Source: Thermococcus sp. 21S9
GTDB lineage: Archaea > Methanobacteriota_B > Thermococci > Thermococcales > Thermococcaceae
Length of the DNA: 64,000 bases
Direction: 5' to 3'
NCBI RefSeq assembly: GCF_012027635.1
Contig: NZ_SNUS01000001.1
Coordinates: 806,001-870,000, forward strand
The stretch's first letter is position 1, and each line of letters begins with the position of its first letter. Made by a program: the position numbers and the translations under genes. Shown here one piece after another: positions 41,464 through 50,551 of this stretch. The notes beneath the pieces are model-generated. The model had not been told where the DNA came from. It did not search any database and saw only the letters and a program-made list of their open reading frames with translations.

Positions 41464-41788
41464 GGCGAGGGGGTCGGGGGCTCTCGGGGCACTCCCGAGG
41501 AAGTTCCGCCCACCGCACCGGGGCCGCGGTGCCGTAAGGCACCTCCCGAGAGGGAGGGCAACGGCGCAGAAACGACACGGCCCCCGGGAGATGTGAATGA
41601 CGCGCGCGAAGGGCTCGGCGACGGGCACCGAGCTAACCCGCAGACAATCCCGGGGGATGCGGTGAAACGGCCGTCCCGCGGGGTGCAAGGCCGACGCTGG
41701 GGCGATGAGTTCCCGGTGCGAGCCCCGTGGTAGGCCGCTCAGTCGAATGCCCCCCTTGACACAGAAGGCGGGCTACGACCCCCTCGCC
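41464..41788 (+). ncRNA. rnpB: RNase P RNA, archaeal type A
   Basis: This RNA of about 325 nt is the catalytic component of RNase P, which trims the 5' leader from tRNA precursors. The conserved cores are visible: gaggaagttccgccc near the 5' end (CR-I) and acagaaggcgggctac near the 3' end, which pair to form P4. The ends are closed by a perfect 13-bp P1 helix (41464-41476 with 41776-41788). The segment is very G+C rich with many hairpins, as expected in a hyperthermophile. It overlaps the last codons of the minus-strand transporter gene by 16 nt. The protein subunit Pop5 is encoded at 57 kb. Confidence 0.96.
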
Positions 41789-48433: not shown

Positions 48434-48527
48434 AGAAACCACCGCTCTAATATAGGGCTCCGGGGGTTAAATACCTATCGCCGGGCAGGTTTTTAAACCC
48501 CCTTCTCTAACCCCTCCGGTGGTGAGA

Positions 48528-49718
48528 ATGGCGAGGGTAATCGTTGACGCCCAGGCGGCGAGGGCCATAGGGAAGGGCGCGATGATAGTCTTCAAGAAAG
48601 GTGTCGTGAGAACCGAGGGTGACTTCGAGCCCGGAGACATAGTCGAGGTCTACACAAGGGGAGGGAAGTTCCTCGGCAGGGGCTTCGTCAACCCCAACTC
48701 GAACATAATGGTTCGCCTGCTCATCAAAGATAAAGACACCCCGATAACGAAGGAGCTCTTCAAGGAGAGGATTAGGAAGGCTAACGAGTACAGGAAGAAG
48801 GTTCTCGGCTACGACAAGGCTTACAGAATGGTCTACGGCGAGGCAGACTATCTACCGGGCTTAATAGTCGACCGCTTCAACGAGATAGCCTCGCTTCAGA
48901 TTTCGAGCGTTGGCATGGAGAAGTTTAAGCTCGATTTGGCCGAGGTGATAATGGAGGTCGAGCCTGAGATAGAGACCGTCTTCGAGAAGAACACTGGGCG
49001 CTCGAGGAGAAGGGAAGGACTGCCCGAGATAGAGCGCGTTCTCCTCGGTAAGGAGAAGTACAGGACGATAATAGAGGAGGGAAAGGCCAAGTTCATCGTC
49101 GACATGCGCGGTCAGAAGACGGGCTTCTTCCTCGACCAGCGCGAGAACAGGATAGCTCTGGAGAAGTACGTCAAGCCGGGAATGAGGGTTCTCGACGTCT
49201 TCACCTACACCGGTGGCTTCGCGATACACGCGGCGGTTGCCGGGGCCGAGGAAGTGGTTGCCGTTGACAAGTCCCCACGGGCAATTGAAACCGCCAAGGA
49301 GAACGCCAGGCTCAACGGTGTTGAAGATAAAATGAAGTTCATCGCCGGTTCCGCATTCCCCGTTATGGAGGAGATGCTCAGGAAGGGCGAGAAGTTCGAC
49401 ATAGTTATCCTCGACCCCCCTGCCTTCGTCCAGCACGAAAAGGACCTCCAGCGCGGGCTTAGAGCGTACTTCAACGTGAACTACGCCGGCTTGAAGCTCG
49501 TTAAGGAAGGCGGAATCCTCGTCACCTGCTCCTGCTCCCAGCACGTTGACATGCAGACGTTCAAGGACATGGTCATCGCCGCTGGGGCAAAAGCCGGCAA
49601 GTTCCTCAAGATGCTCGAGCCCTACAGAACCCAGGCCCCGGACCACCCGATACTCATGGCCTCGAAGGACACCGAATACCTTAAGTGTCTCTTCCTCTAC
49701 GTTGAGGATATGCGCTGA
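48528..49718 (+). CDS. PUA-domain SAM-dependent rRNA methyltransferase, RlmI-like
   Basis: This 396-residue cytoplasmic enzyme has an N-terminal PUA domain (residues 1-75), a central EEHI-like domain and a Rossmann methyltransferase domain with VLDVFTYTGGFAIHAA near 223. The catalytic region is VILDPPAFVQHEKDL followed by VTCSCSQHVD. It corresponds to the Pyrococcus PH1915 type and to E. coli RlmI, which makes m5C in 23S rRNA; the exact target here is not known. ATG follows CCGGTGGTGAGA. A candidate C/D guide RNA starts 6 nt after its stop. Confidence 0.88.
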   Translation: MARVIVDAQAARAIGKGAMIVFKKGVVRTEGDFEPGDIVEVYTRGGKFLGRGFVNPNSNIMVRLLIKDKDTPITKELFKERIRKANEYRKKVLGYDKAYRMVYGEADYLPGLIVDRFNEIASLQISSVGMEKFKLDLAEVIMEVEPEIETVFEKNTGRSRRREGLPEIERVLLGKEKYRTIIEEGKAKFIVDMRGQKTGFFLDQRENRIALEKYVKPGMRVLDVFTYTGGFAIHAAVAGAEEVVAVDKSPRAIETAKENARLNGVEDKMKFIAGSAFPVMEEMLRKGEKFDIVILDPPAFVQHEKDLQRGLRAYFNVNYAGLKLVKEGGILVTCSCSQHVDMQTFKDMVIAAGAKAGKFLKMLEPYRTQAPDHPILMASKDTEYLKCLFLYVEDMR

Positions 49719-49723
49719 AACTC

Positions 49724-49793
49724 GGGGACGATGACGAGAAAGCACCTCCACTGAGACCGGCGTGAGTGCTGAGACGCCCACGGTCCGAGTCCC
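49724..49793 (+). ncRNA. Candidate C/D box guide RNA
   Basis: This element of about 70 nt has boxes C ATGACGA (49731-49737), D' CTGA (49751-49754), C'-like GTGCTGA (49766-49772) and D CCGA (49785-49788). The ends pair as GGGAC (49725-49729) with GTCCC (49789-49793), leaving the 3-nt bulge G-A-U expected for a kink-turn. Guide regions are 13 nt (49738-49750) and 12 nt (49773-49784), the usual archaeal lengths. The deviations in C (U5 to C) and D (U2 to C) fall at the two bases that face each other in the kink-turn. It would direct 2'-O-methylation; the targets are not identified. A T-rich stretch follows. Confidence 0.55.
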
Positions 49794-49807: not shown

Positions 49808-50551
49808 TCACAGCCCGAGTATCAAACTATGCCTCCACCGCGTCCCAGCTTTAAAGCGGACGTCTCTCACCGAGTAGCCCAGCTTTTCTCCCTTCTCGGC
49901 TATAACCCTTATCAGCTCCTCCTTGTCGGGCAGGAAAAGGGCCACCCTTCCGCCGGGCCGTAGGTAGTCCCTCGCTTCCTCAATAAGTTTCACCGAGAAG
50001 GCCTCGCCGTACTTCCCACCGCCAACGCCTTCCCTCTCCGTTAAAACGCCCCTCGTCGGCCTCTCGTAGTATGGGGGAGCCGAGAAGATGACGTCGAAGC
50101 GCTCTCCCTCGGGAATTACTCCCCTGATTATTCCCCCGTCGCTCTTGATTAGCCTGACCTTTGTGCCGTTACGCTCGACGTTCCTCCCCGCGTACTCGAA
50201 GAACTCATCGTCCAGCTCTGTGGCCGTTACCTCGCAGTTGAAGAGCCTCTCAGCCATAAGCGCCATCATGGCGGTGTGCCCGGTTCCAATCTCCAGAACC
50301 TTTTCTCCGCCCCTCAAAAACGTCTTCAGGAAGAGGTAGCGCGATATCGGGGGCGTTACGAGACCGCGCGGGTGGTATTCTATCTCCAGCCCGAAGAGGG
50401 CCTTTGCTATGGCTCTGTTGTAGAGTATTCTGGCTTTTCTGTTCGAGAAGTCGAGCCTCCCGCGCTCGTCCACGTAGTTTTCCAGCTCCGGAAAGAGCTT
50501 TACCGCTTCCCTCACAGGCAGTCCGAGTTTTCCGTCCTTCCAGAGGGGCAT
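49808..50551 (-). CDS. RlmF/METTL16-like SAM-dependent methyltransferase
   Basis: This 247-residue protein has a Rossmann methyltransferase core: motif I VLEIGTGHTAMMAL near residue 85 and motif IV SAPPYY, in the position of the NPPF/NPPY that marks adenine-N6 methyltransferases. An N-terminal region contains GLVTPPISRYLFL, similar to the segment before motif I in RlmF and METTL16. An m6A activity on RNA is therefore possible, but the first motif IV residue is Ser instead of Asn or Asp, so the target is uncertain. It converges on the guide RNA candidate with 14 nt between them. Confidence 0.75.
   Translation of the reverse strand: MPLWKDGKLGLPVREAVKLFPELENYVDERGRLDFSNRKARILYNRAIAKALFGLEIEYHPRGLVTPPISRYLFLKTFLRGGEKVLEIGTGHTAMMALMAERLFNCEVTATELDDEFFEYAGRNVERNGTKVRLIKSDGGIIRGVIPEGERFDVIFSAPPYYERPTRGVLTEREGVGGGKYGEAFSVKLIEEARDYLRPGGRVALFLPDKEELIRVIAEKGEKLGYSVRDVRFKAGTRWRHSLILGL

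Follow-up and report, generated by a model that had tools for sequence, protein, structure and literature searches.

Architecture and family of the sRNA

The short gap between two genes for proteins resembling RNA methyltransferases in Thermococcus sp. 21S9 raises the question of whether it encodes a box C/D guide RNA and, if so, whether the one-base deviations of its C and D boxes, which face each other, arose by a coordinated change. The first-pass annotation of the window, by which we mean the whole stretch of 64,000 nucleotides analyzed here, had proposed both. By direct reading of the sequence, a terminal stem, a k-turn bulge, C, D′, C′, and D boxes, and two guides were all located at positions 49725-49793 (+). 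The proposed 5-bp stem, 3-nt bulge, guides of 13 and 12 nt, and opposed C and D box deviations were confirmed in this reading. The k-turn is made up of the stem strands GGGAC (49725..49729) and GUCCC (49789..49793) and the bulge GAU (49730-49732). The C box AUGACGA (49731..49737) and the D box CCGA (49785..49788) each differ by one base from RUGAUGA and CUGA, respectively, and the two deviating bases, C49735 at C-box position 5 (k-turn position 3b) and C49786 at D-box position 2 (3n), form a C.C combination.

Between these boxes lie the 13-nt D′ guide GAAAGCACCUCCA (49738..49750), the D′ box CUGA (49751..49754), recognized in the sequence and in the Rfam alignment, and a long 11-nt D′-C′ spacer GACCGGCGUGA (49755..49765), followed by the C′ box and the 12-nt D guide GACGCCCACGGU (49773..49784). 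Both guide lengths fall within the range of about 10-13 nt expected of archaeal box C/D sRNAs. The C′ box GUGCUGA (49766..49772) is degenerate, with A replaced by C at position 4, and was recognized by its alignment with AUGAUGA of the Pyrococcus orthologs. The spacer is partly complementary to the section of the D guide nearest the D box (49773-49785), and a 4-nt complement between spacer and D guide occurred in 32 of 86 orthologs compared with 7 expected, in raw counts that pool related genomes. From this complementarity, the long spacer might mask the D guide.

A cmscan search of the 64-kb window matched the RNA to RF01128, the sR43 family, which Rfam describes as 'Small nucleolar RNA sR42'. 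The score was 71.8 bits, where the gathering score is 45, and the E-value was 4.5e-15; the match spanned the entire model (1-56 of 56). The guides, the boxes, and their order are those of RF01128; the window RNA differs from the family model in a 7-nt insertion in the D′-C′ spacer, in its C′ box GUGCUGA and D box CCGA, and in having C at C-box base 5, where the consensus has A. RF01128 was present in 89 of 94 Thermococcaceae genomes, including 73 of the 74 of good quality, and absent from all 14 control genomes. The one good-quality genome with no sR43 match was a complete Thermococcus genome (G035). Both guide cores of the family, GCACCUCC for D′ and ACGCCCACGG for D, were found in the window RNA; among the 89 orthologs displayed, the former was present in all and the latter in 69. 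All five terminal-stem pairs were preserved in the majority of orthologs, where compensatory exchanges gave, for example, GCCGC/GCGGC and UGGCA/UGCCA. The window RNA is thus an ordinary conserved member of an already catalogued family, and the sR43 RNA is kept across related genomes, so that a lack of conserved boxes, which the first-pass annotation had named as a ground for rejection, was not found.

Expression of the ortholog in T. kodakarensis

The other ground for rejection named at the outset, the lack of an expressed RNA of 65-75 nt, failed for the ortholog in T. kodakarensis KOD1. The sR43 match in that genome (1593071-1593134, minus strand) coincides with ncRNA03 of PMC9014305, for which a circular junction of 1593064-1593134, corresponding to 71 nt, was reported with 7,565 reads (PMC9014305, Table 1). 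Circular reads of ncRNA03 numbered 403 in the wild type and 1 in the knockout of the RNA ligase Rnl (TK1545) (PMC9014305). The coordinates of sR41, sR42, and sR46 in PMC9014305 also coincided with C/D pattern matches in the T. kodakarensis genome, which confirms the coordinate system of that study. The expressed and Rnl-circularized ncRNA03 lies in the same gap between the same two genes as the window RNA, whereas its box pair is G.U (C box AUGAGGA and D box CUGA) instead of C.C. In PMC9014305, ncRNA03 was placed outside the 61 C/D sRNAs, with no alias. The evidence for an expressed RNA of 60-75 nt is the published ortholog data only, by analogy with which the window RNA is probably expressed. 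In our overall explanation, the window RNA, an archaeal box C/D sRNA of the sR43 family, probably works as a methylation guide; as the first-pass annotation had held, the locus contains a C/D box guide RNA, with its Rfam match, its conservation, and the published expression of its T. kodakarensis ortholog in agreement.

Predicted targets of the two guides

We infer that the C/D k-turn and the C′/D′ k-loop recruit L7Ae, Nop5, and fibrillarin. A search of the guide complements against rRNA and tRNA, which the first-pass annotation had suggested, yielded three candidate sites with a Watson-Crick pair at guide position 5, namely, 16S G993 for the D′ guide and either U44 of tRNA-Ser or 16S U1021 for the D guide. 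Judging from this complementarity, ribosomal RNA is a probable methylation target of the sR43 RNA, and serine tRNA is a possible one.

Positions 2-9 of the D′ guide (GCACCUCC) form eight contiguous Watson-Crick pairs with 16S positions 990-997 (GGAGGUGC), and guide position 5 faces G993, which corresponds in the alignment to E. coli G1050, a helix 34 nucleotide located four bases upstream of C1054. The 8-nt match in the source genome is weak by itself, and 26% of composition-matched 8-mer shuffles also occur in the combined rRNA and tRNA-Ser sequences. A U at guide position 10, carried by 13 orthologs, lengthens the D′ match to 9 or 10 pairs. Of the 74 good-quality genomes, 60 contained the 15-nt 16S target sequence without any change. 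Exact D′ guide complements elsewhere in the genome were no commoner than those of a reversed-pattern control, and the exact complements of both guides elsewhere in the genome lay mostly outside tRNA genes. The D′ guide is predicted to target 16S G993, on which it would position fibrillarin for methylation.

Positions 2-12 of the D guide form 11, 10 (plus one G-U), and 9 contiguous Watson-Crick pairs with tRNA-Ser(CGA), tRNA-Ser(UGA), and tRNA-Ser(GGA), respectively. These three of the four isoacceptors are matched, and tRNA-Ser(GCU) has a mismatch with the guide. U44, located by counting from the anticodon stem, is opposite D guide position 5. In 16S rRNA, the segment 1017-1029 (ACCGUG[A]GGCGUC) pairs with the entire 12-nt D guide and leaves only a single A bulged out, with a duplex energy of −21.8 kcal/mol, and the site thus addressed, U1021 (E. 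coli U1078), lies 28 nt downstream of G993. Shuffled guides did as well in 0.4-1.2% of cases for the tRNA match and in 0.1-0.6% for the 16S match within 100 nt of G993, so that neither match is likely to be a chance event.

It is a real alternative, to which we give roughly a one-in-three standing, that the sR43 RNA is a classical double guide for 16S rRNA, with the D′ guide directed to G993 and the D guide to U1021, and that its match to tRNA-Ser arises by chance or is of secondary importance. The 12 pairs of the 16S duplex and the rarity of equally good shuffles agree with this, as does the report that roughly every second archaeal C/D sRNA is predicted to be a double guide whose two targets lie within 100 nt (PMC4644070). 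However, the bulge lies one pair beyond the base to be methylated, published prediction criteria permit no bulge at all, and the match to tRNA-Ser is perfect. The U that would remove the bulge was found in none of 89 orthologs. Because no ortholog has acquired this single base, U44 of tRNA-Ser (GGA, UGA, and CGA) is most likely the target served by the D guide, in preference to 16S U1021.

In eukaryotes, U44 of tRNA-Ser is methylated to Um44 by Trm44, a stand-alone protein (PMC9957541). The candidate target of the D guide is the same nucleotide, whereas here an RNA guide would take the place of the protein enzyme. If this is true, U44 would be a site for which archaea use an RNA guide and eukaryotes a protein to achieve methylation. 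In the main text of a published mass spectrometric study of P. furiosus tRNAs, Ser U44 is not among the tRNA sites predicted for C/D sRNAs, and Um44 is not mentioned.

In about 15 Thermococcus genomes, the D′ guide was retained and the D guide was replaced by other sequences (e.g., GAGAAAACGGGU) with no clear rRNA target. This loss or change suggests that the target of the D guide is dispensable in these genomes. The tRNA-Ser target sequence was kept in at least some of them, and a search of the Thermococcus genomes with an altered D guide for a replacement beside a D-like box gave hits with one mismatch to the lost guide but none that was exact.

Coupling of the C and D boxes

The 3b.3n combination in 87 sR43 orthologs was G.U in 23, G.C in 20, A.U in 12, C.C in 9, C.G in 6, and A.G, A.A, and U.U in 4 each; with four further combinations, twelve were found in all. 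Any of A, C, G, and U occurred at C-box position 5, and the same was true of D-box position 2. In the tree of the neighboring gene, the closest relatives all had C at 3b, with C or G at 3n by single changes. The first-pass annotation had read the C.C pair as a U-U pair that became C-C in this RNA. Given the rarity of U.U in the family, a local clade that already had C in the C box, and a D-box base that became C or G by single changes, such a recent paired change in the window RNA did not happen, and C.C is not private to it. Watson-Crick pairing at 3b:3n in the sR43 family was not enriched beyond phylogeny (P = 0.10, 59-tip tree), and it was rejected as a driver within the family.

As a general rule, the coordinated change proposed for this RNA was strongly borne out by other C/D sRNAs of the source genome and three related genomes. 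The C/D sRNAs were collected by a four-box pattern search, filtered for a well-placed D′ box, and the window RNA, whose aberrant C′ box was missed by the pattern, was added by hand to the set of the source genome (n = 33). In this set, the combination was U.U in 15 sRNAs, C.C in 10, G.C in 5, A.C in 2, C.U in 1, and U.C in none (Fisher's exact test for U against non-U, 1.5e-8). The coupling was also found in T. kodakarensis (p = 1e-4), P. abyssi (p = 6e-4), and a further genome, G002 (p = 0.012), where the sRNAs share ancestry across the four genomes and the four tests are not independent. In the four Thermococcaceae genomes, U at 3b faced U in 77 of 77 cases, and U.C was found in none of 132 sRNAs. 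The C′ and D′ boxes were likewise coupled (p = 4.8e-6 in the source genome), less strictly and with a few U.C exceptions. When orthologs in the source genome were compared with those in P. abyssi, 20 pairs differed, 17 of them at both positions, mostly U.U versus C.C. Because C.U, A.U, and G.U occur and U.C does not, the C box seems to change first.

It is unlikely that C.C is the product of unselected drift in a family whose C and D boxes accept every base at 3b and at 3n, as the twelve combinations among sR43 orthologs and the absence of pairing beyond phylogeny would allow. This reading is weakened by the strong dependence between 3b and 3n across the C/D sRNAs of four genomes, at C/D and at C′/D′, and by the finding that orthologs that differ usually do so at both positions. 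We prefer a covarying k-turn position, of which C.C would be one accepted state; in Thermococcales, it would be mostly U.U, C.C, G.C, or A.C, and U would never face C. The proposition that this k-turn pair, which follows the sheared A.G, switches in a coordinated manner during evolution (from U.U to C.C or to G.C, but never to U.C), with an echo at C′/D′, and that, in addition, the sR43 RNA directs 2′-O-methylation of U44 of tRNA-Ser, is put forward as a whole tentatively, with odds somewhat against both parts holding together.

The k-turns of archaeal C/D RNAs have a strong propensity to U:U at this position (PMC5689011). The bulge, the two sheared G.A pairs, and G:C at 4b:4n of the archaeal C/D k-turn with U:U at 3b:3n (PMC5689011) are common to the window RNA, which differs from this standard in its C.C at 3b:3n. 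In the searchable literature, outside which most subscription papers lie, no statement of a coupling between C-box base 5 and D-box base 2 was found. As for a physical basis, C at 3b in the absence of G at 3n favors ion-induced folding (McPhee et al. 2014, PMC4382518). Ion-induced folding was rejected as the basis of the coupling, since, judged by the published folding rules, the coupled combinations include one that folds well (C.C) and others that fold poorly (G.C, A.U, and G.U), with no consistent trend. The coupling provides a testable rule for the k-turns accepted by L7Ae, and it could improve those C/D sRNA finders that score the two boxes independently.

Genomic context

The upstream gene (48519..49718, +) encodes a PH1915-like (RlmI-like) RNA methyltransferase, the ortholog of P. 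horikoshii PH1915 (PDB 2as0; phmmer E = 4.5e-232), which scored under the NCBIfam cut-off for RlmI, and its stop codon lies 6 nt before the sRNA stem. The convergent downstream gene (49808..50551, −) encodes a SAM-dependent methyltransferase (Pfam PF05971, Methyltransf_10, E = 3.8e-10) that is weakly RlmF-like, with 38 bits against an NCBIfam RlmF cut-off of 302. The position of the sRNA beside an RlmI-like gene and an RlmF-like gene was therefore as first described, and a functional link was not supported, because the orientation flips, the context changes, and nothing ties the guides to the enzymes.

It is very improbable that the two protein methyltransferases and the guide RNA form a functional unit selected for co-location. 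The sRNA is flanked by the convergent PH1915-like and RlmF-like genes in most Thermococcus genomes, as such a unit would have it, but in Pyrococcus it is found elsewhere or with the two genes about 1 kb away, and in some relatives it is on the opposite strand. Moreover, archaeal C/D sRNA genes commonly abut the 3′ ends of ORFs (PMC7994747). The methyltransferase neighbors of the sR43 gene look incidental.

The remaining reading, that box-like motifs have clustered here by chance, which the two off-consensus boxes might suggest, has virtually no standing, because the end-to-end match to RF01128 identifies a known family and not a chance arrangement, and the E-value, the conservation among Thermococcaceae, and the sequenced ortholog refute it.

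A scan for bacterial-type promoters and terminators detected nothing, and its bacterial models are uninformative for archaea. Several Thermococcus genomes and one related genus carry the sRNA on the opposite strand of the same gap. In some genomes with this reversed orientation, it adjoins one or both of the two genes, as if inverted in place. The only other Rfam match within the 64-kb window was the archaeal RNase P RNA (RF00373), at 41465-41787 (+), with 191.5 bits.
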